Shown: positions 1,731 to 25,562 of the stretch, in pieces
Layout: the number at the start of each line of letters is the position of its first letter
Numbering within the stretch: the first letter of the stretch is position 1
DNA from: a virus
Reading direction: 5' to 3' (one strand)
DNA: 30,308 nucleotides
IMG/VR virus record: IMGVR_UViG_3300031629_000045
Location: 1-30,308 of that record
Translations under genes and position numbers: made by a program
Notes under the pieces: model-generated
The model's input: the letters and a program-made list of their open reading frames with translations, nothing else
Told to the model about the DNA's origin: nothing
The model's database searches: none

Positions 1731-2123
1731 ATGTCAAAAATATTGATTGGGATTATTATTGCTATGGGTTTATCATGTATGTTATACTATCAATTCTCTG
1801 TTGTACCTATGCAGGTTAAACTAGAAGAACAGACCAAAGTTATTCTAGCACAAGACCTTAGAGACCAAGAACAGAAAGCGGCTATAGAGGCCATTCAGAG
1901 TAACTTAATAAAGACCGGGGAATCCCTCAGAGGTCTTCAAGTACAAAATCAACAATACGAAACTCAGATGTCAGAGTATATGGATATATTCCGTAGACAC
2001 AACATCGCTAAGTTAGCTAGTGCCAAGCCTGGACTAATAGAAACAAGAATTAATAAAGCAACCAAGGAGGTATTCGATGCAATTGAAGATGATAGCAGTC
2101 GTATTAGCGCTCTTAACGATTAG
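1731..2123 (+). CDS. Putative inner-membrane spanin (i-spanin, Rz-like)
   Basis: The product has 130 residues. Residues 4-26 form one N-terminal membrane anchor (ILIGIIIAMGLSCMLYYQF). Residues 30-95 are a Gln/Glu-rich coiled coil that would sit in the periplasm, followed by a conserved-looking tail (KPGLIETRINKATKEVFDAIE). This is the usual build of an i-spanin, which bridges to an outer-membrane lipoprotein and fuses the membranes during lysis of a Gram-negative host. The call is strengthened by the next gene, a lipoprotein whose start is embedded in this gene out of frame, the classic Rz/Rz1 layout. The Shine-Dalgarno is a weak AGGA just upstream. Confidence 0.7.
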   Translation: MSKILIGIIIAMGLSCMLYYQFSVVPMQVKLEEQTKVILAQDLRDQEQKAAIEAIQSNLIKTGESLRGLQVQNQQYETQMSEYMDIFRRHNIAKLASAKPGLIETRINKATKEVFDAIEDDSSRISALND

Positions 2124-2562
2124 TGGTTGTAGTTTATTAACCCCTGCTCCTAGGGAAGTAGAGATTATAACTAAGCCTATAAGAATAGATATAGTACAAC
2201 CTGTATTACCTAGAGCTATAGACTTAAAAGAACCAAGGTGGTATGTAGTATCTGATGCTAAAGTAATTGAGAATTGTTTAAAAGATTCAGTGACTAAAGA
2301 AGCCAACTGTAAATTAGGCAGAGAAGATTTATATCCCGAAGGTTATACTTACCTAGATAAATTTATAGATGGGATTAAAAAGAGACACGGTGGTGATGTA
2401 GTTTTTGTTGCTATGAGTGTTGAGGATTATGAGATGATGTCTTATAACACTCAGGAAATTAAAAGATACATTAATCAGCTAGGTGAGGTGATTGTTTATT
2501 ATAGGAATGTGACATTAAATGATGAAGAAGCTGCAGCAGTTGAAATTAAATTGGAGAAATAG
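2077..2562 (+). CDS. Putative outer-membrane lipoprotein spanin (o-spanin-like)
   Basis: The product has 161 residues. It opens with a short hydrophobic signal and a lipobox (LTISGC, Cys18), so it should be lipidated and sorted to the outer membrane. The mature part starts with Pro-rich sequence, as o-spanins do, then has a longer globular part with SVEDYEMMSYNTQEIKRYI, a pattern I remember from lipoproteins in the lysis region of marine T4-like phages. It overlaps the putative i-spanin by 47 bases in another frame and has GGAGG immediately upstream of its ATG. It is longer than a minimal Rz1, so an additional role is possible. Confidence 0.65.
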   Translation: MQLKMIAVVLALLTISGCSLLTPAPREVEIITKPIRIDIVQPVLPRAIDLKEPRWYVVSDAKVIENCLKDSVTKEANCKLGREDLYPEGYTYLDKFIDGIKKRHGGDVVFVAMSVEDYEMMSYNTQEIKRYINQLGEVIVYYRNVTLNDEEAAAVEIKLEK

Positions 2563-2563
2563 A

Positions 2564-3310
2564 ATGGCCAAGACAGAGATAACATTGTGGGAAAGAGCAG
2601 AGATTGCTGCTAAACTTTCGGCCATAGCATATATGAATGAGAAACCTGCTACAACTGCAGCAAAGAAACTTGGGTTTACACAAGTAAAACTAATCAGTAA
2701 TGATGGTGCTGAAGTATTAGTATGTAAAGATAAAGATTCTCTTTGGTTTGCGTTTAGGGGAACAGAACCTGCTAAACTTAATGATGTAATGGCTGACCTT
2801 AAAGTAGTAAAGAATACCGCAGTTGCCGGTGGTAAAGTACATGGTGGTTTCCAACAGGAAGTTGACGATGTATGGATGGAATTAGTAAAGGAGTTAGAAC
2901 ACAACGACCAACTAAAGGTAAGAAAAGATGTATATATTACTGGGCATTCTTTGGGTGCTGCTATGGCTACTATTAGTGCCACACGTTATCAACCTAGTGC
3001 GCTCTTCACCTTTGGTTCGCCAAGGGTTGGTGGAAAACACTTCATCAAAAACATCAAATGTCCACACTACAGATTTATGAATAACAATGACATTGTGTGT
3101 AGAATCCCACCAGCATGGTTAGGTTTCAGACATCACGGTGAAATGATTTACTTTAATAGGTTCGGTGACAAACAACTTAAACCAACATGGACAGATTTCT
3201 TTTATGGAATAGGCCAGTCTTGGAAACGTTGGAAGTTCTTTGATGGAGTAGTAGACCACGGAATGCCTAACTATGTTCAAGCTATTAAGAAACTGGCGAA
3301 GGTTAAGTAA
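2564..3310 (+). CDS. Class 3 lipase (alpha/beta hydrolase)
   Basis: The 248-residue product carries the full signature of the fungal-type lipase class 3 family. The oxyanion region is FAFRGTE (62-68), the nucleophile elbow is GHSLG with Ser129, the acid is likely Asp176 in NNNDIVCRIPP, and the base is likely His232 in DHGMPNYV. The ATG at 2564 is preferred because GGAG lies seven bases upstream; an in-frame ATG at 2519 would overlap the spanin gene and adds only basic residues. There is no signal peptide, so export would need lysis or another route. Next to spanin genes, it may help break down host membrane lipid late in infection. The substrate is not known. Confidence 0.85.
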   Translation: MAKTEITLWERAEIAAKLSAIAYMNEKPATTAAKKLGFTQVKLISNDGAEVLVCKDKDSLWFAFRGTEPAKLNDVMADLKVVKNTAVAGGKVHGGFQQEVDDVWMELVKELEHNDQLKVRKDVYITGHSLGAAMATISATRYQPSALFTFGSPRVGGKHFIKNIKCPHYRFMNNNDIVCRIPPAWLGFRHHGEMIYFNRFGDKQLKPTWTDFFYGIGQSWKRWKFFDGVVDHGMPNYVQAIKKLAKVK

Positions 3311-3681
3311 TGTATTTCCTACTCATACTCTCGCTCAAATCTATCTTAGGTTCTGTGATAGGTTCATCATTCTACAATTGGTTCCAAGGCACAACAGGTG
3401 GTATCTGGTTCCAAAAACAAGTAGACAAATTCATGCAGCACTTTGCTGTAAAATATGATTTGGAACTGGCAAAGAAAGATGCCAAGTTCCGAAAACAATT
3501 TCCTTTGGTCGCACAACGACTAGATGTATTGGAAGCACTGGCCCATCCTAAATGCGGCCTAGATGGATTTGATGATTATCCCCCACTAATCGAACGGATA
3601 GATGGTATGGAAGAGGATCTTACTACCCTATGGGAAGTAAACCTTAAAGAAGTGTCAGAGTATTTAAAGAAAAATAAATAA
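3310..3681 (+). CDS. Unknown small protein with a hydrophobic N-terminus
   Basis: The product has 123 residues. The first ~20 are hydrophobic (MYFLLILSLKSILGSVIGSS) and could be a membrane anchor or an uncleaved signal. They are followed by an aromatic segment (FYNWFQGTTGGIWFQKQ) and a charged helical C-terminus. I recall similar proteins in T4-like marine phages but know no function. Its start overlaps the lipase stop, so the two are probably co-translated, and it is the last gene before the nrd promoter. Confidence 0.65.
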   Translation: MYFLLILSLKSILGSVIGSSFYNWFQGTTGGIWFQKQVDKFMQHFAVKYDLELAKKDAKFRKQFPLVAQRLDVLEALAHPKCGLDGFDDYPPLIERIDGMEEDLTTLWEVNLKEVSEYLKKNK

Positions 3682-8359: not shown

Positions 8360-9206
8360 TTACAGCCAGATTGCACTTTCAAACATCATGGTACAAAAGT
8401 TAAATGATGAAGATATGATTAGACATATGATATTAAACAGTATTCGTATGTACAATAAAAAGTATCGAAAAGAATATGGTCAGATGGTTATCTGTGCAGA
8501 TGGCATGAATACTTGGAGACGTCAGTACTTTCCCGAATACAAAGCTAATAGAAAGAAGGGCCGAGATGCAACTAGTCATATGGACTGGCCAGAAATCTTT
8601 CGTATCCTTTCTACAGTCCGAGAAGAACTCATGGAGAACTTCCCATACAAAGTATTGCATATGGAAGGTTGTGAGGCTGATGACATTATTGGTGCCCTTG
8701 CTATACGAACCCAAGAGTTCGGTCAAGGCGAACCCGTTATGATTATTTCATCTGATAAAGATTTTATTCAGTTGCAGAAGTATAACAATGTAAAACAGTT
8801 CTCTCCTATACAAAAGAAAGCAGTGGTAGATAAGAACCCTAGAAACTATTTGTTTAACCACATCATGAGAGGTGATGCTGGAGATGGTATTCCAAATGTA
8901 TTATCTAAAGATGCTACATTTATTACCGAAGGCCTCAGTCAAACTCCATTAAGACAGACAAGAGTTGATGATTGGTTAACACATAGTGACGACCTTAAAG
9001 CTGCTATGCCCGAGGATCTGTATCGTAACTATCAAAGAAATAAGACCTTAATTGACTTAAATGAAATTCCGGAGACCATTCAAGAATCTATTATAAATAA
9101 ATATGACGATCAAAAACTACCTATGAGAATGAAGGTATTGAATTATTTGATTAAAAAAAGATGCACTAACCTGATTGAATGCGTGGAGGAATTTTATAAT
9201 GCGTAA
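8346..9206 (+). CDS. rnh: RNase H / 5'-3' exonuclease of the FEN family (T4 Rnh-like)
   Basis: The 286-residue product removes RNA primers and flaps during lagging-strand synthesis. The acidic metal-binding set of the FEN family is visible: Asp5 (LLDYSQ), Asp52 (CADGMNTWR), Glu110/Asp112/Asp113 (CEADDIIG), Asp137/Asp139 (SSDKDF), and Asp177/Asp180 (RGDAGDGIPN). The helical-arch region (RRQYFPEYKANRKKGR) is also present. The length is close to T4 RNase H (305). In T4 this gene is near dsbA and gene 33; here those are 20 kb away, so the neighbourhood has been rearranged. Confidence 0.93.
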   Translation: MILLDYSQIALSNIMVQKLNDEDMIRHMILNSIRMYNKKYRKEYGQMVICADGMNTWRRQYFPEYKANRKKGRDATSHMDWPEIFRILSTVREELMENFPYKVLHMEGCEADDIIGALAIRTQEFGQGEPVMIISSDKDFIQLQKYNNVKQFSPIQKKAVVDKNPRNYLFNHIMRGDAGDGIPNVLSKDATFITEGLSQTPLRQTRVDDWLTHSDDLKAAMPEDLYRNYQRNKTLIDLNEIPETIQESIINKYDDQKLPMRMKVLNYLIKKRCTNLIECVEEFYNA

Positions 9207-9993: not shown

Positions 9994-10569
9994 ATGAATA
10001 TATTTGTACTAAGTGACGACCCAGTCCAAGCTGCACAAGACCAGTGTGATAAACACGTTGTTAAAATGATCGTAGAATCAGCTCAGATGTTATCCACTGT
10101 CCACCGGATGCTAGACGGTACTATTACCCAACGGCCATCCAACTCAGGCAAAAGAACTCTAAAATATTACGAACTACATGACGATAGAGAGGATATCCTT
10201 TATAAGGCTGTTCATCACAATCATCCATGTACGGTATGGTCAAGAGAAAACTGCTGCAATTACAATTGGCACTATGAACATTTTACAGCGCTATGTGATG
10301 AATATACATATAGGTATGGTAAAATTCATGCAACAGATACTAAACTAAGGACTCTGTTAAAAGAACTGCCAAAGAATATATTACACACCAATTGCAAGTC
10401 AGCATTCAAACTAGCCATGGGGTCAAATCCTGAGTGTGTAGTAGTTGGCCTGGGTGGCACAGATGTAGTAGAATCATACAGAAACTTTTATCACACAAAA
10501 CAGGAAAGATTTAAAATGGATTGGACTAAACGCAATGTACCGGAGTGGTTTATACATGCCTCTATATGA
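9994..10569 (+). CDS. Conserved phage protein of unknown function (DKHVVKM family)
   Basis: The product has 191 residues. The N-terminus has the pattern MNIFVLSDDPVQAAQ..CDKHVVKMIVESAQMLSTVHR, which I recognise from an uncharacterised family common in tailed phages. Conserved His, Asp and Cys residues (DKHVVKM, HHNHPCTVWSRE, WHYEHF) suggest an enzyme or metal-binding active site, but I cannot name the reaction. The gene is probably translated from a leaderless message. Its stop region overlaps the start of the next gene by 14 bases. Confidence 0.75.
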   Translation: MNIFVLSDDPVQAAQDQCDKHVVKMIVESAQMLSTVHRMLDGTITQRPSNSGKRTLKYYELHDDREDILYKAVHHNHPCTVWSRENCCNYNWHYEHFTALCDEYTYRYGKIHATDTKLRTLLKELPKNILHTNCKSAFKLAMGSNPECVVVGLGGTDVVESYRNFYHTKQERFKMDWTKRNVPEWFIHASI

Positions 10570-12343: not shown

Positions 12344-13483
12344 ATGGATCATAGAATATTGAATATCCTGAATGATGAAAAGCATCGGCAGGCTAATACA
12401 ATAGAGCTAATTGCAAGTGAAAACTTTGCTAGTCAAGCTGTAATGGATCTTGCTGGTAGTATACTTACAAATAAGTATGCTGAAGGTTATCCGGGCAAGC
12501 GATACTATAATGGCTGTGATCACATGGATGATATCGAAACATTAGCTATTGATACTCTTTGCAAATTGTTTGGAGCTAGATATGCTAATGTTCAACCACA
12601 TTGCGGTGCAAATGCTAACACTGCAGTCTATCAAGCATTCTTAAAACCCGGTGATAAGATTCTCGGTATGGACTTAGCTAGTGGCGGGCATTTAAGCCAC
12701 GGTAGTCCTCCAAATATCTCAGGCAAAATTTATGATGCATATACATATGGAGTTGATGAGAACGGCCTCGTTGATTACGACACGGCCCAATTATTAGCTG
12801 CACTTCACAAACCTAAAATGATCATTGCTGGTGCAAGTGCATATCCAAGACAAATTGATTGGAAACGATTTAGAGAGATCGCAGATTCGGTAGGAGCATT
12901 GCTTATGGTTGATATGGCTCATTACTCTGGCCTTATTGCTGGTGGTGTATATGATAGTCCAATTCCTTATGCTGATGTGGTTACTTCCACAACTCATAAG
13001 ACTTTACGAGGCCCAAGAGGTGGAGTAATACTTTGGAATGATCCTAGTTATAGTAAACGTATTAATAGTGCAATCTTTCCTGGCACTCAGGGTGGGCCAC
13101 TAATGCATATCATCGCCGCAAAGGCTCAATGTTTCATAGAAGCTGATACACTAGAGTTTAAAAATTATTCAGTAAGAGTAATTGAAAATGCACAAGCGAT
13201 GTGTGCAGTCTTTGAAGCAAACGAATTTCCAGTACAAACAGGTGGTACTGATAGTCATATCATCTTAATGGATTTAAGTAATAGTAAGTATAGTGGTCGT
13301 GAAGCGGCTGACCTGCTTGAAGCTGCTGGCATCACCGTAAACAAGAACGGTGTTCCAAATGACCCTCGACCATTCATGGAAACAAGTGGTATTCGGTTGG
13401 GTACCAGTGCAGAAACTACTCGTGGTGTGACCATTGATCAGTTTAAAGATTTAGCACAAAAGATTGTAAATATATTAAAATAA
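12344..13483 (+). CDS. glyA: Serine hydroxymethyltransferase
   Basis: The 379-residue PLP enzyme interconverts serine plus tetrahydrofolate with glycine plus 5,10-methylene-tetrahydrofolate. Conserved blocks run in order: ELIASENF (21-28), LTNKYAEGYPGKRYYNGC, GGHLSHGS, VDMAHYSG with Asp190 and His193, and STTHKTLRGPRGG with the PLP-binding Lys219, then FPGTQGGPLMH and SGIRLGT. It is about 40 residues shorter than E. coli GlyA, trimmed at both ends, but all core blocks remain. The folate product is the carbon donor for thymidylate synthesis and for hydroxymethyl-pyrimidine formation, which fits the nrd and nucleotidase genes nearby. GGGAG lies ahead of the ATG. Confidence 0.95.
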   Translation: MDHRILNILNDEKHRQANTIELIASENFASQAVMDLAGSILTNKYAEGYPGKRYYNGCDHMDDIETLAIDTLCKLFGARYANVQPHCGANANTAVYQAFLKPGDKILGMDLASGGHLSHGSPPNISGKIYDAYTYGVDENGLVDYDTAQLLAALHKPKMIIAGASAYPRQIDWKRFREIADSVGALLMVDMAHYSGLIAGGVYDSPIPYADVVTSTTHKTLRGPRGGVILWNDPSYSKRINSAIFPGTQGGPLMHIIAAKAQCFIEADTLEFKNYSVRVIENAQAMCAVFEANEFPVQTGGTDSHIILMDLSNSKYSGREAADLLEAAGITVNKNGVPNDPRPFMETSGIRLGTSAETTRGVTIDQFKDLAQKIVNILK

Positions 13484-18205: not shown

Positions 18206-18670
18206 ATGTTTTGGAATAAAGATACCGATATTGATGTAGATCAGTTAAGAGAAACACTAACGATTGATGAGGGTCTAGTAAATGAAATTTATGAAGACCA
18301 TCTGGGCTACGCAACTTTCGGAATAGGCCACTTGGTCCTTGAATCCGATCCAGAGTTTGGCCAAGATGTGGGAACCCCAGTCACGGAAGAAAGAACAATT
18401 GAATGCTTCGAGCACGATGTACAGTCAGTACTCAAAGACTGTAAGAAGTTGCATGAAGGGTGGGACGGATACCCACAAGAAGTAAAACAAGTTATTGCGA
18501 ACATGATGTTCAATATGGGACTTACGCGCTTGAGTAAATTTAATAAGCACAACGCAGCGCTGCAGAGTGGTGATTGGAATGGAGCTGCGGTAGAAGGCAG
18601 AGATAGTAGATGGCACAAACAAGTAACGAACAGAGCAGAAAGATTAATGGAACGATTAGAGAAACTTTAA
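18206..18670 (+). CDS. Endolysin, T4-lysozyme-type (GH24)
   Basis: The 154-residue enzyme cleaves peptidoglycan glycan strands to release progeny. The catalytic triad of T4 lysozyme is exactly conserved with an offset of 11 residues: Glu22 (TIDEGL), Asp31 (IYEDHLGY) and Thr37 (YATFGIGH), corresponding to E11, D20 and T26. There is no signal peptide, so it needs a holin; two holin-like genes follow at 19096 and 19389. The spanin pair is 16 kb upstream, so lysis functions are split. There is an AAGGAAAGGG ribosome-binding region ahead of the ATG. Confidence 0.95.
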   Translation: MFWNKDTDIDVDQLRETLTIDEGLVNEIYEDHLGYATFGIGHLVLESDPEFGQDVGTPVTEERTIECFEHDVQSVLKDCKKLHEGWDGYPQEVKQVIANMMFNMGLTRLSKFNKHNAALQSGDWNGAAVEGRDSRWHKQVTNRAERLMERLEKL

Positions 18671-19070: not shown

Positions 19071-19101
19071 GGTCATACATGTTATAAATACATGTATGAC
19101 C
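19071..19101. repeat. Perfect 12-7-12 inverted repeat covering a late promoter and a start codon
   Basis: GGTCATACATGT (19071-19082) is the exact reverse complement of ACATGTATGACC (19090-19101); the loop is TATAAAT. As RNA made from upstream, it would fold into a stable hairpin that buries the ATG at 19096. As DNA, its centre is a T4-type late promoter. There is no T-run after it, so it is not an ordinary terminator. Confidence 0.8.
19083..19090 (+). promoter_or_regulatory. T4-type late promoter (TATAAATA) in a hairpin loop
   Basis: An exact late consensus, five bases ahead of the ATG at 19096. Transcription would start at about the start codon and so omit the left arm of the hairpin. It is the only promoter I see for the whole curli-like operon. 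Confidence 0.6.
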
Positions 19102-19392
19102 GAAATCTTTGAAATAATTGCGCAGGTCGGTGCCCCCATTGCTGGGGCCTTTGCCATGGGCGCTTTTATTTTCCTCATTATTAAACAAATATTAGAAGGT
19201 CTGATTGATAAGATTAAGACCCTCACTATGTTTTGTGAATCCTTAGAAAACCGAGCCAGAACAATGGCTAATGAAATGATCAAGATTGATATGTTGGTCA
19301 GTTCAGCTTTAGAATTAAGACCCGACATAGAAAGAGTTGCACGAGCAGAGAACTTTGTTGAAGATGGCAAAGTTGATGTACGGAGAGATTGA
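19096..19392 (+). CDS. Small membrane protein, holin-like
   Basis: The 98-residue product has an N-terminal membrane helix (VGAPIAGAFAMGAFIFLIIKQI) and a helical cytoplasmic or periplasmic tail (MFCESLENRARTMANEMIKIDM). The layout, one membrane helix near the N-terminus then a charged coil, recalls BhlA/UviB-type holins, and the endolysin lies just upstream. The next gene has the same design, so the two look like paralogues. A role in curli-like export cannot be excluded, because it heads that operon. No Shine-Dalgarno sequence is present; translation is probably from a leaderless late message. Confidence 0.6.
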   Translation: MTEIFEIIAQVGAPIAGAFAMGAFIFLIIKQILEGLIDKIKTLTMFCESLENRARTMANEMIKIDMLVSSALELRPDIERVARAENFVEDGKVDVRRD

Positions 19393-19667
19393 TGGAAGAA
19401 GCTAATGTATTAGTAGAGGGTATACAACAATATGGTTTCCCTATAGTTGCCTGTGTGGGCTTTGGCTATTTTCTATTCTATATCTGGAAATTCATTAGTA
19501 ACAATATAGAACCAGAGTTAGCAAAAATGCATTTTGCACTTATTAGAGTTATTGATAGAATACGAATGCTCGATCAAGACTTAATTAGATTACAGCAAAA
19601 AGTGAATGTAGTGTTAGAGTATAAAGAAAATGAGAAAAAGAAAAGTGAAAGTGAGAATGAAAAGTAA
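19389..19667 (+). CDS. Small membrane protein, holin-like, paralogue-like to the preceding gene
   Basis: The 92-residue product has one N-terminal membrane helix (YGFPIVACVGFGYFLFYIWKFI), then a coiled coil (RVIDRIRMLDQDLIRLQQKVNVVL) and a Lys/Glu tail. The Q-x-G-x-P-I at the start of the helix is shared with the preceding protein (QVGAPI / QYGFPI). I recall this pair upstream of csgG-like genes in other marine phages. Holin or antiholin is a fair guess; a partner of the curli exporter is the alternative. It overlaps the preceding gene by four bases. Confidence 0.6.
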   Translation: MMEEANVLVEGIQQYGFPIVACVGFGYFLFYIWKFISNNIEPELAKMHFALIRVIDRIRMLDQDLIRLQQKVNVVLEYKENEKKKSESENEK

Positions 19668-20145
19668 AATAACAGGAACCAATTTAGGCATACTAGTAAT
19701 AGCCTTATATTTTGTATCACAAGCAGTCTTGGCCGATGGTATAGTATTTAAGTTTAAGAGTCCGTCATTTAGTGGCCAAGGCGCTTCTGCCCACTATTTA
19801 ACTATTGAGAACCAAGAGAAGTCACGAAAAGACAAGATACAGGAAGATGTGCAAGCTGCCATAGAGAAAGCAGAAAGAGAAGCTAATAACACAACCCAAG
19901 CTAAGTTTTTAAGGAACTTAGAGAGTAGAATATACGCACAGATTGCTAAACAGTTAGTTGATAATATGTTTGGTAATACTGAAAGCTCTACTGAAGGATT
20001 CTTTGAAATAGAGGGTAACTCTATTACTTATGAAACTATTATAGGCGCTGGCTCTGATGGAACGGACATCATTAGAATAACGGTACTTAGTGATGATGGA
20101 ACTACTACTACACTCGATGTTCCCGTCGGTTCGGGTTCGTTCTAA
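19657..20145 (+). CDS. CsgF-like curli assembly factor
   Basis: CsgF binds the CsgG pore on the outer face of the outer membrane and couples secretion to nucleation. From the ATG at 19657 the 162-residue product has a normal signal peptide (LGILVIALYFVSQAVLA, cleaved near residue 26), then the CsgF hallmark FKFKSPSFSG (E. coli: FQFRNPNFGG), a helix (FLRNLESRIYAQIAKQLVDNMF), and a beta C-terminus with TTTLDVPVGSGSF. The longer frame from 19630 adds nine very basic residues and is less likely. CsgF sits directly before CsgG as in csgDEFG. CsgE is not seen. Confidence 0.85.
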   Translation: MKSKITGTNLGILVIALYFVSQAVLADGIVFKFKSPSFSGQGASAHYLTIENQEKSRKDKIQEDVQAAIEKAEREANNTTQAKFLRNLESRIYAQIAKQLVDNMFGNTESSTEGFFEIEGNSITYETIIGAGSDGTDIIRITVLSDDGTTTTLDVPVGSGSF

Positions 20146-21038
20146 TGCGTTTGGGGTATGTGGCATTTCTGCTATTATTAACAGGATGTGCTGGTATACC
20201 TTCAGTAGAGGATAGTTGTACTACAAAATTTATGACAGCCTTTGGAGAATGTTTAGAAGAGGCTGAGGTAGTGACATTACCAGCTTCTGAAAGATTGTCT
20301 AATCTGCCAGCTGCAAAAGAAAGACCTATTGTTGCAGTTTACAGTTTTAAAGATTTAACAGGTCAAAGAAAGAGTAGGGAGAATCTTGCAGATTTCTCTA
20401 CCGCAGTGACACAAGGTGCAGAGGCATTTGTAATTGATGCATTAAAAACTGCAGGAAAGGGTACTTGGTTCCGAGTAGTAGAAAGAACTGGGTTGGATAA
20501 CTTAGTTAAAGAAAGACAGATTATCAGATCGGCGAGAGAAGAGTTTGAGAAAAAAACAGAAGATAAGAAGCTGCAGCCATTACTCTTTGCTGGTATTATA
20601 ATTGATGGTGGTATTATAGGATATGATTCCAACATCAGAAGTGGTGGACGGGGTGCAAGATACTTAGGTATTGGTTCATCTGTCAAGTATAAGAGGGATT
20701 CAGTAATCATAAGTTTAAGGGCAACCTCAACTCTTACTGGTGAAATTTTATTGAACGTACAGACTAAAAAATCTATCTTGTCTGTAGGTGGTGGTTATGA
20801 TGTGTTTCGATTTGTTGATATGGATACTAAATTAATCGAAATTGAAGATGGTAGTAGTTTTAACGAGAGCGTTACTTATGCAACACGTGCAGCAATCGAA
20901 GAAGCAGTACTAGAGTTAATATACCAAGGCCACGATAGAGGTTACTGGGTAATAAAGGATGGTCATCGACACCCCCATCAGCACGATGGTACAAACGAAG
21001 GACATCCGACAAAAGGAGAAGAGGATGAACATGAATAA
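20145..21038 (+). CDS. CsgG-like curli secretion channel lipoprotein
   Basis: CsgG forms a nonameric outer-membrane pore that secretes curlin subunits. The 297-residue product has a lipobox (LLLTGC, Cys15) and the CsgG domain: VYSFKDLTGQRK, FSTAVTQGAEAFVIDAL, VVERTGLDNLVKERQIIRSA, IIDGGIIGYDSN, GARYLGIGSS, STLTGEIL, and YDVFRFVD, each aligning with E. coli CsgG blocks. It ends with a His/Asp/Glu-rich tail (GHRHPHQHDG..) that E. coli CsgG lacks. It follows the CsgF-like gene with a one-base overlap and overlaps the curlin-like gene by 14 bases. Confidence 0.93.
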   Translation: MRLGYVAFLLLLTGCAGIPSVEDSCTTKFMTAFGECLEEAEVVTLPASERLSNLPAAKERPIVAVYSFKDLTGQRKSRENLADFSTAVTQGAEAFVIDALKTAGKGTWFRVVERTGLDNLVKERQIIRSAREEFEKKTEDKKLQPLLFAGIIIDGGIIGYDSNIRSGGRGARYLGIGSSVKYKRDSVIISLRATSTLTGEILLNVQTKKSILSVGGGYDVFRFVDMDTKLIEIEDGSSFNESVTYATRAAIEEAVLELIYQGHDRGYWVIKDGHRHPHQHDGTNEGHPTKGEEDEHE

Positions 21039-21882
21039 AAGTTACATTTTTGTGATGTTTGGTCTTATATCAATGTCTAATGCAATTGCAGGCGATGCGA
21101 ATGATAATGAAATATTTATTGAACAGTCTGGTAACAATGTTGAGCTTACTATTCAACAAATTGGTGCTGGTAACAAGTATGGTGGCGATAACTTTAGTGG
21201 AACGTCCATTGATATGACAATGACAGTTTCCGATTCATACTTGGATATATTACTTGATGGAGATTATAATAAAATGTTTGGTACTATGGACACTACTGGT
21301 TCTACTATCAACAACTTTATTACTGGCGATTATAACTTGTGGAACCAAAAGATAGGTGTGGCTAATACGGCTGACACAATGACAATCGATTCGGCTATAA
21401 CTGGTAGTACTAACACTATAGTATTCAGAGCAGGTAATGCTGACGATACTTATAATATATCTACACCATTATGGAATCAATCAAATCCAGAAGCATTCTG
21501 GACGGTAAGTGGTAGTGTTTGGTCGAGAACGGTTTCAGGACAAACTGCATATTGGGGTTCATGGACGCCAACTGAAGGATCTGCAGATAGTTTGAATATG
21601 GATTTAGATGTTGTCGGATCTGATAACACTTTAAATGTATTTGTTAATTCAACTAATGCTACATTCAATTGGGATGTAACTGGTTCAGATAACTGGATTC
21701 AAACCACAATGGAAGATGGTTCAGATAACAATCAAACTGTTGCAGTAACTGGTGATTACAACTTTATATTTGTAGGCCAAGACACTGGCTCAACTGTTGG
21801 GGTAACGAACAATGCAATACTTGATGCGACATTCAATACAACACATTCCGACATTAATATTATACAGTCTGACGCTAACTAG
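21025..21882 (+). CDS. Curlin-like repeat protein (candidate secreted amyloid subunit)
   Basis: The product is 285 residues from the ATG at 21025, six bases after AAGGAG. It has a signal peptide (IFVMFGLISMSNAIA). The mature part begins NEIFIEQSGNNVELTIQQIG, a close match to curlin repeats, and continues with G-[SD]-x-N turns roughly every 20 residues (GDYNKMF, GDYNLWNQ, GSTNTIVF, GSDNTLNVF, GSDNWIQ, GDYNFIFVGQ). It is longer and more degenerate than CsgA (151), with a Trp-rich insert near the middle (WTVSGSVWSRT). It lies directly after csgF and csgG homologues, so secretion through that pore is the natural reading. Confidence 0.75.
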   Translation: MNMNKSYIFVMFGLISMSNAIAGDANDNEIFIEQSGNNVELTIQQIGAGNKYGGDNFSGTSIDMTMTVSDSYLDILLDGDYNKMFGTMDTTGSTINNFITGDYNLWNQKIGVANTADTMTIDSAITGSTNTIVFRAGNADDTYNISTPLWNQSNPEAFWTVSGSVWSRTVSGQTAYWGSWTPTEGSADSLNMDLDVVGSDNTLNVFVNSTNATFNWDVTGSDNWIQTTMEDGSDNNQTVAVTGDYNFIFVGQDTGSTVGVTNNAILDATFNTTHSDINIIQSDAN

Positions 21883-22975
21883 CATATTTCTTATAGGTTC
21901 GGTTAACGCCGAATCTATAGGAGGTATTACTGAACAGAATGGAGTTGCATCACTGGTTAGAAGTGGTGGTGAAGAGATTACAGTATCGGGTTCTTCGGTA
22001 CCCAATATAGAATTAAATGATACTGCCGTTACTGGTAATGGTAGAATGCTGATTGAGTTCTTAGATGAAGAAGAGCTGTCTATTATAGAACACACTCGTA
22101 TCTACATAGATAAAGCATATTATGATCCAGACCCATCTAAATCTAAGATGGCAATTCGTATGGTACAGGGAACTGCTAGGTTTACCTCAGGCCGTGGGAA
22201 AAGAATTAAAAAATCCAATGTGCAATTATCAACACCAACTGCTGAGATAGCTATACTCGGTACTGACTTTACTACAACCATTGATGAGATAGGTCAATCA
22301 CTTATTATTTTACTACCAGATGAAAAGACTGGTTTGTCTTCAGGTAAAATTATCATAAGCAATGCTGGTGGTACTGTAACCCTAGAAGAAGCATATCAAG
22401 CATCTATTATATCATCATACGACCGTGCTCCTAGCTCACCCGTAATACTATCTGGTATTGACACTAGTATGATCAGTAATATATTCATTGTTTCAGAGCC
22501 TAAAGAGATTAAAGCAGTGAAACAACAAGAAGGTATTATAGCAGATAAAGATTCTGGTAATATACTTGACGTTGACTTCTTAGAATTTAATGAGTTAGAA
22601 AAAGATTACCTAGAATATGATGATTTGGAATTTAGTGAGCTAGATATTGATTACTTGGATGTTGATTTTCTACAAGACGTATTAGATGTTCTCCAAGAAT
22701 TAGATAAGGAAACCGGTTTAGATAGAAGTGCTTTAAAAAATAATATAGACCTTAGGGGAACTAAAATTGGATTCGATACAGATACTCAATACAACAGTAT
22801 AATTGATAAGGGTGCTAATACCGTAAAATTCTTTAGGAATGTTGATGGAGTTATAAGTATAAGTATGTTACTTTCACAATCTGCTACGATTAGAACAGTA
22901 TCAAGTCAAAAAGAATCAGCAATAATATTAGGAGATGGTCAGGGTATTATAATTAATATCACACAGATACAATGA
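21812..22975 (+). CDS. FecR-domain protein with an acidic pentad repeat
   Basis: The product has 387 residues with a signal peptide (LTLTSIFLIGSVNA, cleaved near residue 33), although its start lies 71 bases inside the preceding gene. A FecR domain follows (NGVASLVRSGGEEITV, GNGRMLIEFLDEEELSI, VQGTARFTSG, STPTAEIAILGTDF). Residues ~253-292 form eight pentads each led by Leu (LDVDF-LEFNE-LEKDY-LEYDD). The C-terminus (SQKESAIILGDGQGIIINITQIQ region) is beta-rich and ends like a curlin repeat. FecR domains sense or scaffold at the cell envelope and commonly neighbour CHASE2 cyclases in bacteria. The role here is inferred. Confidence 0.75.
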   Translation: MQYLMRHSIQHIPTLILYSLTLTSIFLIGSVNAESIGGITEQNGVASLVRSGGEEITVSGSSVPNIELNDTAVTGNGRMLIEFLDEEELSIIEHTRIYIDKAYYDPDPSKSKMAIRMVQGTARFTSGRGKRIKKSNVQLSTPTAEIAILGTDFTTTIDEIGQSLIILLPDEKTGLSSGKIIISNAGGTVTLEEAYQASIISSYDRAPSSPVILSGIDTSMISNIFIVSEPKEIKAVKQQEGIIADKDSGNILDVDFLEFNELEKDYLEYDDLEFSELDIDYLDVDFLQDVLDVLQELDKETGLDRSALKNNIDLRGTKIGFDTDTQYNSIIDKGANTVKFFRNVDGVISISMLLSQSATIRTVSSQKESAIILGDGQGIIINITQIQ

Positions 22976-23748
22976 TGAACAGATTTTTAAATTGCACAGC
23001 AATATCGTTTTGGGTTGCTTATCTTATAGTATCATGTCAACCAGCCAATGGTGATAATGAGATATATGTAACTCAGACTGGTGATAACCTTATGTTAGGA
23101 TACCGACAAGAAGGTGATAACAATATGATAGATATAGTATTAGACGGGTATCAATTGGATACAGATATCCTACAAGAAGGTAATAGAAACGAAATACTTA
23201 AAAAATCTCAGGGCATTAGTGGCGACTATAACCAAGTAGTAGTAGAACAATGGAATAACACTAATAGTACTGACGTAAATAAAATATGGATTGATATTGA
23301 TGGGGATAATAATGCTGTTGATGTAGGTCAAGGGTGTAAATTCTATTACTCTAATAGCACAGAATGCAGCAGAGATACCCACGAAGATGCAGGCCATAAT
23401 ATGGAAATCAATATTGATGGTAGTAATAATGGAATACGTGGTGGACAAAAGTCGGGTAGTGCTAATCCAGACCACGATTTACTAATAGATATTAATAGTG
23501 ATAATAACTCTGTGTTCTTTACACAAGCGGGATCGGGCTCTAAAGATTTAGATTTAACTATTAATAATGATGGCAACGCGGTAAGTATCCATCAACATTA
23601 CGGTTCTCATAATGCCACAGTAACTCTTGATGGCACATCACCTACTAGCTTAAGTTTAATACAGGCAGGCGGCCCAAGTAAGAGTTATAACTTAATACAG
23701 AACTGTCTTACTATAGGTGGTTGCTCTGTGTCGGTTACACAAAACTAA
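22972..23748 (+). CDS. Second curlin-like repeat protein, possibly a lipidated nucleator
   Basis: The product has 258 residues. The signal region contains IVSCQ (Cys22), a plausible lipobox; a signal-peptidase I site after PANG is the alternative. The mature start NEIYVTQTGDN mirrors the other curlin-like protein (NEIFIEQSGNN). G-D-x-N turns with Gln follow about every 20 residues (GDNNMIDI, GNRNEILKKSQG, GDYNQVVVEQ, GDNNAVDVGQG, GSNNGIRGGQ, SDNNSVFFTQAG, DGNAVSIHQ), and it ends SVSVTQN. The Gln/Asn ladder is clearer than in the first protein. Lipidation would make it analogous to the CsgB nucleator. It overlaps the FecR gene by four bases. Confidence 0.78.
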   Translation: MMNRFLNCTAISFWVAYLIVSCQPANGDNEIYVTQTGDNLMLGYRQEGDNNMIDIVLDGYQLDTDILQEGNRNEILKKSQGISGDYNQVVVEQWNNTNSTDVNKIWIDIDGDNNAVDVGQGCKFYYSNSTECSRDTHEDAGHNMEINIDGSNNGIRGGQKSGSANPDHDLLIDINSDNNSVFFTQAGSGSKDLDLTINNDGNAVSIHQHYGSHNATVTLDGTSPTSLSLIQAGGPSKSYNLIQNCLTIGGCSVSVTQN

Positions 23749-25562
23749 TGTATGACTGGAAAGTAGTATTACTCACTATAGCATTATTAGTAACAGTAAG
23801 AGTTATGAATCCAAAATTAGTCGAACAGTTTCGGTTAAACTACTTTGATTCTCTACAATCATATCAAGAACCAATTAAATCAGATAACATAGTCATAGTA
23901 GATATAGACGAAAAGTCATTAGATAGGTTTGGTCAATTTCCATTTAGTAGGGACTTATATGCAGATTGGTTAAATCAATCTCCAGAAAATAATGCTTATG
24001 TGTTTAATATGGGATTCACCGAGGATGATAGGTTCGGCAAAGATCACGAATTAGCTATAGCCATGGCAGAAAGAGATGTTATATTATCATCGTTCGTTAG
24101 TAGTAAACCCCAAGGAGAAAAACCTAGTAGGGGATTCGGGAAACTAGGTAAAGGTGATCCAACCGATTGGTTGTATGCTTATCCCGGAATGAGAAACCCT
24201 GTTGTTGCCGAGGATGCTGACGGAGTTGGAACGGTATCGGTTGCTCCCTCAGTAGATGGTATAGTGAGAGAATCACCTTTAGCAATAATGGCTAACGGTC
24301 ATCTATATCCTTCAGTCGCATTAGAGATACTACGAGTGTGGGAGTTTCAGCCTAACCTAGCAATTAAGATTAAAGAAGCGGGTGTTGAGTGGGTAAGAAT
24401 GGGTACTCTGCCACCAATGTATACAACACCGAACTCTAATGTTCAAATAGCATACTGGAACAAATATGAACGTATATCATTTGGAGACCCACTACCGGAT
24501 GAAAAGATAATCATTCTAGGATTGAGTGCAGGTGGATTAGTCAACCCAGTCCCGACTCCGACTGGTGCTATGTTACCACACGACATTCAAGCACATCTAA
24601 TATCTACTGTAGTGAACGGTATCCAAATTCAAAGACCATGGTACGCCGAGCAGATTGAAATTCTGTTGATTATAGTACTATCATTAATAATATTACTTAT
24701 TGTATATCAAACTCCAACTTATATGTCTGCTTGTATATCACTGGGTTTAATGGGTGGGGCAATGTATGCAGGTTATCATTTTTGGATGGCTGAACTTTTA
24801 CTGCTTGATGTTTTATTCCCTACAGTAGCGGCCTTTGTCGTATTCACTCATGCTACATTTAATAGATTCTATGTCACATACAAGTTAAAAGAATTGATTA
24901 AAGGCCAATTTGGCACATACCTATCACCAGATATGGTCTATATGTTACAGAAAGATCCCTCACTATTAGCACTCGGTGGTGAAAGAAAGGAGATGTCATT
25001 CTTGTTTATGGACATTTGTGGGTTCACTCCCATCAGCGAATACTATAAGAACAAAGACGACCCCGAAGGATTGGTGCTATTGGTTAATGAATTCTTAGAT
25101 GCTATGACTAAAATCATACTAAACAACGGTGGTACTATAGACAAATATATGGGCGACTGTGTTATGGCGTTCTGGAATGCTCCAATAGCATGCGATAACC
25201 ATGCAGAGATGGCAGTTAAATCATCAATAGAGATAGAGGCAAAGACGAATGAACTTAAAACGATATACCAAGAGAGGGGACTTCCAGATATTAATGTAGG
25301 TACTGGTGTTAATACGGGTGATTGTATTGTTGGGAATATGGGCAGTGAGTCGAGATTTGATTACTCTGTTATAGGAGATGCTGTTAACCTTGCAGCAAGA
25401 CTAGAGGCTACCGCCGCTAGGGGTGAGTACGTAGAGTACAAAACAATCATATCCTCTTTCACTAGAGACCAACTTCCAGAGAGCTATATATGCGAAGAGA
25501 TTGGTAATATCAAGGTAAAAGGTAAAGATGAACTTATAACCATATATGCTCCTAGGTTATAA
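23748..25562 (+). CDS. CHASE2-class III adenylate cyclase
   Basis: The product is 604 residues from ATG 23748 (TAATG overlap with the previous stop). Residues 5-20 are a membrane anchor, ~45-290 an extracytoplasmic CHASE2 domain (VIVDIDEKSLDRFGQFPFSR; GVGTVSVAPSVDGIVR), ~303-370 three membrane helices, and ~410-600 the cyclase. All catalytic residues are present: metal Asp422 (FMDICGFT) and Asp470 (GD), purine-selecting Lys466 (IDKYMGD) and Asp538 (FDYSVIGD), Asn547 and Arg551 (NLAAR). The Lys/Asp pair points to ATP rather than GTP. It should sense something outside the inner membrane and make cAMP. As the last gene of the curli-like operon, it may signal the envelope or amyloid state. Confidence 0.93.
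   Translation: MYDWKVVLLTIALLVTVRVMNPKLVEQFRLNYFDSLQSYQEPIKSDNIVIVDIDEKSLDRFGQFPFSRDLYADWLNQSPENNAYVFNMGFTEDDRFGKDHELAIAMAERDVILSSFVSSKPQGEKPSRGFGKLGKGDPTDWLYAYPGMRNPVVAEDADGVGTVSVAPSVDGIVRESPLAIMANGHLYPSVALEILRVWEFQPNLAIKIKEAGVEWVRMGTLPPMYTTPNSNVQIAYWNKYERISFGDPLPDEKIIILGLSAGGLVNPVPTPTGAMLPHDIQAHLISTVVNGIQIQRPWYAEQIEILLIIVLSLIILLIVYQTPTYMSACISLGLMGGAMYAGYHFWMAELLLLDVLFPTVAAFVVFTHATFNRFYVTYKLKELIKGQFGTYLSPDMVYMLQKDPSLLALGGERKEMSFLFMDICGFTPISEYYKNKDDPEGLVLLVNEFLDAMTKIILNNGGTIDKYMGDCVMAFWNAPIACDNHAEMAVKSSIEIEAKTNELKTIYQERGLPDINVGTGVNTGDCIVGNMGSESRFDYSVIGDAVNLAARLEATAARGEYVEYKTIISSFTRDQLPESYICEEIGNIKVKGKDELITIYAPRL

Follow-up and report, generated by a model that had tools for sequence, protein, structure and literature searches.

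Overlapping spanin genes followed by a class 3 lipase or an unrelated DUF1353 gene: a possible enzymatic contribution to phage lysis

Canonical endolysins have no access to the periplasm until the holin opens the membrane. Spanins act later, when the wall is already gone through the action of the endolysin (PMC6116114). Phages of Gram-negative bacteria are described as rupturing the outer membrane mechanically, by spanin-driven fusion, a picture that enzymatic help would change. In the Rz/Rz1 class of overlapping two-component spanins, a membrane-bound i-spanin is paired with a lipoprotein o-spanin encoded by an overlapping gene (PMC6139136). LysB of the mycobacteriophages Ms6 and D29 is a serine alpha/beta hydrolase with a Ser-Asp-His triad that is encoded among the lysis genes and enzymatically damages the last barrier of the envelope; its deletion results in delayed lysis and a lower burst (PMC6116114). 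For prophage WO, a lysis cassette has been proposed that combines a lipid hydrolase, a patatin phospholipase, with a small protein carrying an N-terminal membrane segment and a coiled coil, in phages that are said to lack the holin-endolysin-spanin system (PMC9203015). Finally, one DUF1353 protein, TtaP, was shown in 2024 to be a phospholipase A2 (PLA2), which cleaves phospholipids by means of a His/Asp dyad and carries no overt secretion signal (PMC11525133).

The locus described here shares features with each of these systems. It lies in the 30,308-base virus record IMGVR_UViG_3300031629_000045, which was analysed over its whole length and is called the window below. A run of four genes on the plus strand (1731-3681) encodes two spanins, a class 3 lipase and a small protein. 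The relevant features of the window are:

1731..2123 (+), i-spanin, 130 aa, with an N-terminal membrane segment followed by a predicted periplasmic stretch
2077..2562 (+), o-spanin, putative lipoprotein of 161 aa (LTISGC, Cys18)
2553..2556 (+), GGAG within the last bases of the o-spanin gene, from the sequence probably the site where ribosomes bind for the lipase
2564..3310 (+), class 3 lipase, 248 aa, without visible signal peptide
2948..2950 (+), codon of Ser129, predicted catalytic residue, in GHSLG
3089..3091 (+), codon of Asp176, predicted catalytic residue
3257..3259 (+), codon of His232, predicted catalytic residue
3310..3681 (+), small membrane/coiled-coil protein, 123 aa, candidate holin-like protein or partner
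18206..18670 (+), lysozyme-like gene, candidate endolysin, 15 kb from the run and outside the operon

The reading frames 1731-2123, 2077-2562 and 2564-3310 had been described in a first-pass annotation made from the sequence alone, and all of its coordinates and residues were correct. Both spanins match families of Rz-like spanins in PHROGs (i-spanin, phrog_739, 3.6e-10; o-spanin, phrog_812, 2.3e-12). The i-spanin reaches a hydropathy of 1.95 at residues 4-22, the o-spanin gene starts in another frame within that of the i-spanin, with an overlap of 47 nt (from the coordinates), and Cys18 is invariant in 14/14 aligned o-spanins; we call the o-spanin a lipoprotein on the basis of the lipobox rule. 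A membrane segment, a lipoprotein cysteine and the gene overlap are all present, as in other two-component overlapping spanins, and the pair is predicted to act in disruption of the outer membrane. As annotated, a single base separates the o-spanin stop codon (TAG, 2560-2562) from the lipase start (ATG, 2564). The ATG of the 123-aa protein in turn overlaps the lipase stop codon by one base. This protein has a hydropathy of 1.77 at residues 3-21 and, judged by eye, a coiled coil, which recalls the small protein of the WO cassette; Pfam and PHROG searches returned no match for it.

The run is followed by the gene for the large subunit of ribonucleotide reductase (named from sequence matches) and by an ORF that we take to encode the small subunit. 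The upstream neighbours, DUF7207 and phrog_2086, belong to families common to T4-like phages, and the match of ORF 715-1299 is named capsid protein in some records. The T4 late-promoter motif TATAAATA is absent upstream of the i-spanin gene and occurs elsewhere in the window at 9092, 16574, 16891, 19083 and 30206. The lysozyme-like gene matches PF00959 (2.3e-9) and the endolysin family phrog_7 (1.1e-13), and a tail-lysozyme family better (9.6e-17). Near it, at 19096-19667, are two adjoining small proteins, both phrog_18771 and with N-terminal hydrophobic stretches by eye, which are holin candidates. Like LysB, the window lipase is a predicted serine alpha/beta hydrolase whose gene accompanies lysis genes, although it adjoins the spanins and not the distant candidate endolysin.

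The lipase matches PF01764 over residues 62-183 (E=9.8e-21; 74.6 bits against a curated cut-off of 22) and the esterase/lipase family phrog_21992 in PHROGs (1.1e-26). Ser129, the nucleophile of the GxSxG motif, Asp176 and His232 are found where the first-pass annotation had placed them, and this predicted triad is invariant in 53/53 distinct lipases, window copy included. An AF2 model (mean pLDDT 75, pTM 0.78; low confidence in the lid region 69-88) was compared to the PDB with Foldseek. The best matches, with 6unv and 1tgl among them, were to fungal lipases and feruloyl esterases (TM 0.5-0.6, best E 2.3e-8). The similarity to lipases of the Rhizomucor type, and to a lesser degree to plant phospholipase A1 (4.0e-5), is consistent with the alpha/beta-hydrolase fold of fungal lipases. 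LysB, in contrast, is cutinase-like and cuts the mycolic acid-arabinogalactan ester of mycobacteria; the best families and folds of the window enzyme are class 3 lipases, not cutinases, and we do not file it as LysB. By hydropathy, the lipase has neither a signal peptide nor a membrane segment (top 19-residue mean 0.81, compared to 1.95 and 2.19 in the spanins), in agreement with the first-pass annotation, and the result is unchanged if the upstream ATG at 2519 is taken as the start. Values of dN/dS against three relatives were 0.051, 0.164 and 0.146. The lipase is under purifying selection and, given the invariant triad and low dN/dS, is thus an enzyme under selection.

We used the lipase to scan IMG/VR, kept 80 of 141 loci, and examined 81 loci including the window copy (L081). 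The o-spanin gene directly precedes the lipase gene in all 79 that could be evaluated, with one base between stop and start in 71 and an overlap of 11-20 nt in eight. Therefore, this arrangement is not due to chance. The gene order proposed as a check on the lysis idea is conserved in close relatives, and the opposite outcome, lipases apart from spanins in every relative, was not observed. Seeding with a lipase profile gave an adjacent o-spanin in 76/80 loci, largely the same contigs as in the first scan or close relatives of them among the matches listed; the other four lipase ORFs start less than 165 nt from the sequence end. If the o-spanin was used as seed, a lipase was found within 150 nt in 70 of 77 loci (80 minus three already in the earlier set), the remainder being L146, where the contig ends, and L160-L165. 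An ORF that by eye looks like a glycosylase follows the spanins in L160, L161 and L163-L165; in the window, a pyrimidine dimer glycosylase-like gene is located at 9994-10569 (PF03013, 1.1e-5). A divergent lipase, B, which is 46% identical, adjoins spanins in 11/12 loci, and the twelfth is truncated.

The adjacency is also maintained where the spanins have diverged. In several loci (L002, L008, L045, L061, L070, L072 and L076 among them), the spanins are 36-57% and the lipase is 79-89% identical to those of the window, and the genes are still one base apart except for a 14-nt overlap in L070. The reverse is seen in L023, in which both spanins, the small membrane protein and the reductase are 95-98% identical to their window counterparts and the lipase only 84%. 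The lipase dS of 0.63 is above the 0.12-0.29 of the spanins and the small protein, a comparison in which the overlapping frames may depress the spanin values. Accordingly, the lipase allele itself (L023:5489-6244) appears to have been exchanged within a very similar neighbourhood.

In the GenBank phage collection, the window o-spanin matches only the Melnitz methylophages (four records). Melnitz, a cultured methylophage whose spanin pair falls into the same PHROG families as that of the window, has a DUF1353 gene (PF07087, 3.3e-14) in the place of the lipase, starting directly after the o-spanin stop codon. The paper on Melnitz discusses lysis; in its main text the sole mention of 'spanin' concerns lambda, and 'lipase' is absent (PMC9004378). 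A scan seeded with DUF1353 (80 of 294 loci kept) revealed an o-spanin within -60 to +150 nt of DUF1353 in 71/80 loci and farther upstream in two (L219, 666 nt; L223, 883 nt). No o-spanin was detected in the other seven, four of which lie near a sequence end (L194, L220, L238, L239), while three have room for one (L196, L203, L216). Since our first spanin models, which also served for the profile-seeded scans and the spanin tree, included the Melnitz pair and so favoured matches in DUF1353 loci, we rebuilt them without it and obtained the same 71/80, with o-spanin E-values from 7e-18 to 4e-5. Not one of the 80 DUF1353-seeded loci contains both a lipase and DUF1353.

The phage DUF1353 proteins have a His-Asp pair and a later Asp that are invariant in 31/31 sequences, and we infer that the later Asp is the partner in the published His/Asp dyad. 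A model of a phage member (pLDDT 72) gave no significant Foldseek match in the PDB, PLA2 fold included; support for the PLA2 assignment thus comes from Pfam, the published assay and the conserved residues. From these, the DUF1353 proteins beside spanins are probably phospholipid-cutting enzymes. The window lipase resembles the TtaP type in being a lipid hydrolase without overt secretion signal, and marine phage members of DUF1353 take the same place after homologous spanins. In contrast to the lipase, they belong to an unrelated His/Asp-dyad family and start with a hydrophobic stretch (by eye; helix 2-37 in the model). Weak matches to Melnitz-type DUF1353 were found in unrelated phages (11 records, 27-35% identity), and in four of five records inspected the gene lies at most two genes from an annotated endolysin, amidase, lysozyme or holin, Eowyn being the exception. 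The label 'tail assembly chaperone' is attached to DUF1353 in HTVC008M, phiRTG5, Fnu1 and Eowyn as well as in PHROGs (phrog_1158). Moreover, in seven matches (L277:5169-5489, L418:3203-3520, L229-L233) DUF1353 adjoins a membrane protein that by eye contains a motif resembling an EF hand; this protein could possibly be a calcium-linked holin or partner of a PLA2.

Linkage of an enzyme gene to the spanins and alternation of lipase and DUF1353 are thus features of these loci, and the exchange has occurred in both directions. The spanins of L277 are nearest to lipase-type pairs (73% and 69%), yet this locus carries DUF1353. Conversely, those of L423 are nearest to DUF1353-type pairs (52% and 56%; by BLAST only, outside the tree described below), yet its enzyme is a class 3 lipase; the lipase gene contains two ambiguous bases, and its ATG follows the o-spanin stop codon at a distance of 13 nt. 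Among 25 long records (47-142 kb), 15 have one PF01764 gene, six have PF07087, none has both and four have neither; these records were chosen by length and gene from loci already found, and the proportions are not frequencies. We also computed a tree of spanin pairs by a quick method, using whole ORFs from 285 of 331 loci (some contigs repeated; 29 without a pair, 15 partial and two cut loci were dropped). Its 106 non-redundant rows require 11 changes of the neighbour label (six for the main lipase, four forced by well-supported branches), with long-branch warnings at L229 and L198. L129, with a diverged lipase, and L277 fall into a supported set otherwise made up of lipase and enzyme-less rows. 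The small number of label changes indicates that common descent explains part of the conservation and that much of the adjacency reflects it.

The link is not universal. When an o-spanin profile was used as seed (best 80 of 566 loci), the next gene was a lipase in 30, DUF1353 in one and another gene in 48, and one locus was cut. The genes after the spanins in enzyme-less loci were read by eye as coiled-coil, 199-aa, glycosyltransferase-like and oxygenase-like proteins. The place after the spanins is therefore not reserved for lipid hydrolases, and with neither enzyme in these 48/80 loci and in four of the 25 long records, which may be fragments, the enzyme looks dispensable. In six loci without lipase (L299, L301, L304, L306, L309, L310), a homologue of the 123-aa protein directly follows the o-spanin (weakest in L304, E 3e-4), and the lipase accordingly looks like an optional insert between these two neighbours.

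Enzymes also occur apart from spanins. DUF1353 is located away from the spanins of the same record in L284/G019, and in HTVC008M it is followed by an i-spanin-like ORF, with no o-spanin detected. From 80 lipase loci on genome contigs, six were inspected, three with spanins (L420, L421, L423) and three without (L422, L427, L432). No spanins were detected beside the lipases of the latter three or those of P-SSM2 and AG-345-O18, and the annotation near the lipases of XacN1, SCTP-2, Cr-LKS4 and RAS14 names none. The P-SSM2 and XacN1 lipases bear the same family name in their records, that of P-SSM2 matches PF01764, and both are 31-33% identical to the window lipase over the part matched by tblastn; unlike the latter, they adjoin no spanins, whether detected or annotated. 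L422 and L432 encode a homologue of the 123-aa protein together with the lipase, and the P-SSM2 lipase gene is likewise followed by a small overlapping ORF.

We favour, with modest confidence, the reading that the window lipase is a lysis-associated lipid hydrolase that is released with the endolysin and attacks envelope phospholipids alongside the spanins, by a logic similar to that of mycobacteriophage LysB, the tested example of a lipid esterase in lysis. A role in lysis had already been suggested in the first-pass annotation. It has gained from the unrelated DUF1353 in the same place in relatives and lost in generality through the distant lipases and the spanin pairs without enzyme. The two-way swaps, the shared place and the adjacency make it better supported than before, yet unproven. 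Lipase and spanins would share one mRNA and be translated in a coupled manner; having no export signal, the folded lipase would wait in the cytoplasm. Once the holin opens the inner membrane, it would exit with the endolysin and hydrolyse ester bonds of phospholipids, presumably those of the inner membrane and of the periplasmic leaflet of the outer membrane. The resulting lysophospholipids and fatty acids would make the membranes weaker ahead of their fusion by the spanins, and lysis might be faster or more complete.

Descent from a single ancestor could have preserved the gene order without any functional link, the place being merely a tolerant site for cargo insertion. This is the strongest of the competing explanations, though we regard it as unlikely. 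It agrees with the few label changes on the spanin tree and with the diverse genes, read by eye, that follow the same spanins, but not with the observation that enzymes of these subfamilies almost always have spanins as neighbours. Nor would it account for the presence in one place of lipid hydrolases from two unrelated families, with lipases of three diverged groups (main, B and that of L423), or for swaps in both directions (L277, L423). We also consider it unlikely, and rank it next, that the lipase, in line with the alternative of feeding on host lipid raised in the first-pass annotation, is an auxiliary metabolic enzyme, which cuts storage or membrane lipid of the host in the cytoplasm for fatty acids or energy and has merely inherited its spanin neighbourhood. 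The missing export signal, the ribonucleotide reductase genes downstream, a serine hydroxymethyltransferase (SHMT) gene elsewhere in the window and the cyanophage P-SSM2, whose class 3 lipase has no detected spanins beside it, would fit such a function. However, neither an unrelated phospholipase-type family beside homologous spanins nor partner swaps between spanins and enzymes with the adjacency kept would be predicted by it.

A quite improbable explanation is that lipase and 123-aa protein form a pair at the inner membrane that serves in membrane remodelling, for superinfection exclusion or host takeover. The coupling of lipase stop and 123-aa protein start, the joint occurrence of both genes without detected spanins in L422 and L432, and the small overlapping ORF after the P-SSM2 lipase are in line with this idea, against which stand the six loci with a 123-aa homologue after the spanins and no lipase. 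Least probable is a virion-associated lipase used at entry. The upstream DUF7207 and phrog_2086 genes, common to T4-like phages, and the capsid protein name given in some records to the match of ORF 715-1299 point in this direction, but we found no link to tail or head modules, and the constant neighbour is the spanin pair.

The lysis reading, derived from comparison of sequences, suggests that enzymes acting on membrane lipids are a means by which some phages burst their hosts. Tentatively, and somewhat short of calling it probable, we extend it to a large group of marine T4-like phages, in which a phospholipid hydrolase made with the spanins would provide a fourth, enzymatic lysis function; at least two unrelated families, class 3 lipase and DUF1353/PLA2, would fill this role and replace each other. 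Addition of a lipid hydrolase to a lysis cassette is of a kind already known, as with LysB and, as a proposal, in prophage WO, where the patatin phospholipase is put forward for phages without the classical system and not, as here, added to a spanin pair. Among the matches listed, we found no report in the open-access literature of the pairing of a lipid hydrolase with spanins or of the alternation of unrelated enzymes, and these two aspects appear new with respect to the literature searched. A term search of the main text of the spanin survey retrieved none of 'lipase', 'phospholipase' and 'phospholipid' (PMC6139136). If our reading is correct, it would suggest a function for those phage genes of the DUF1353 family that several records name 'tail assembly chaperone', and free fatty acids and lysolipids would have to be added to the products of lysis in the sea.

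Some other genes of the window deserve mention. A curli-like locus at 19630-25562 encodes CsgF (PF10614), CsgG (PF03783), a CHASE2 adenylate/guanylate cyclase and a FecR protein. In Melnitz and in pelagimyophages that carry csgGF, csgA/B are reported to be missing (PMC9004378). The locus of the window also contains two N/Q/G-rich proteins (20959-21882 and 22972-23748) without Pfam match, which by eye have signal sequences and look like amyloid subunits. The SHMT gene mentioned above is located at 12344-13483 (PF00464, 1e-148).
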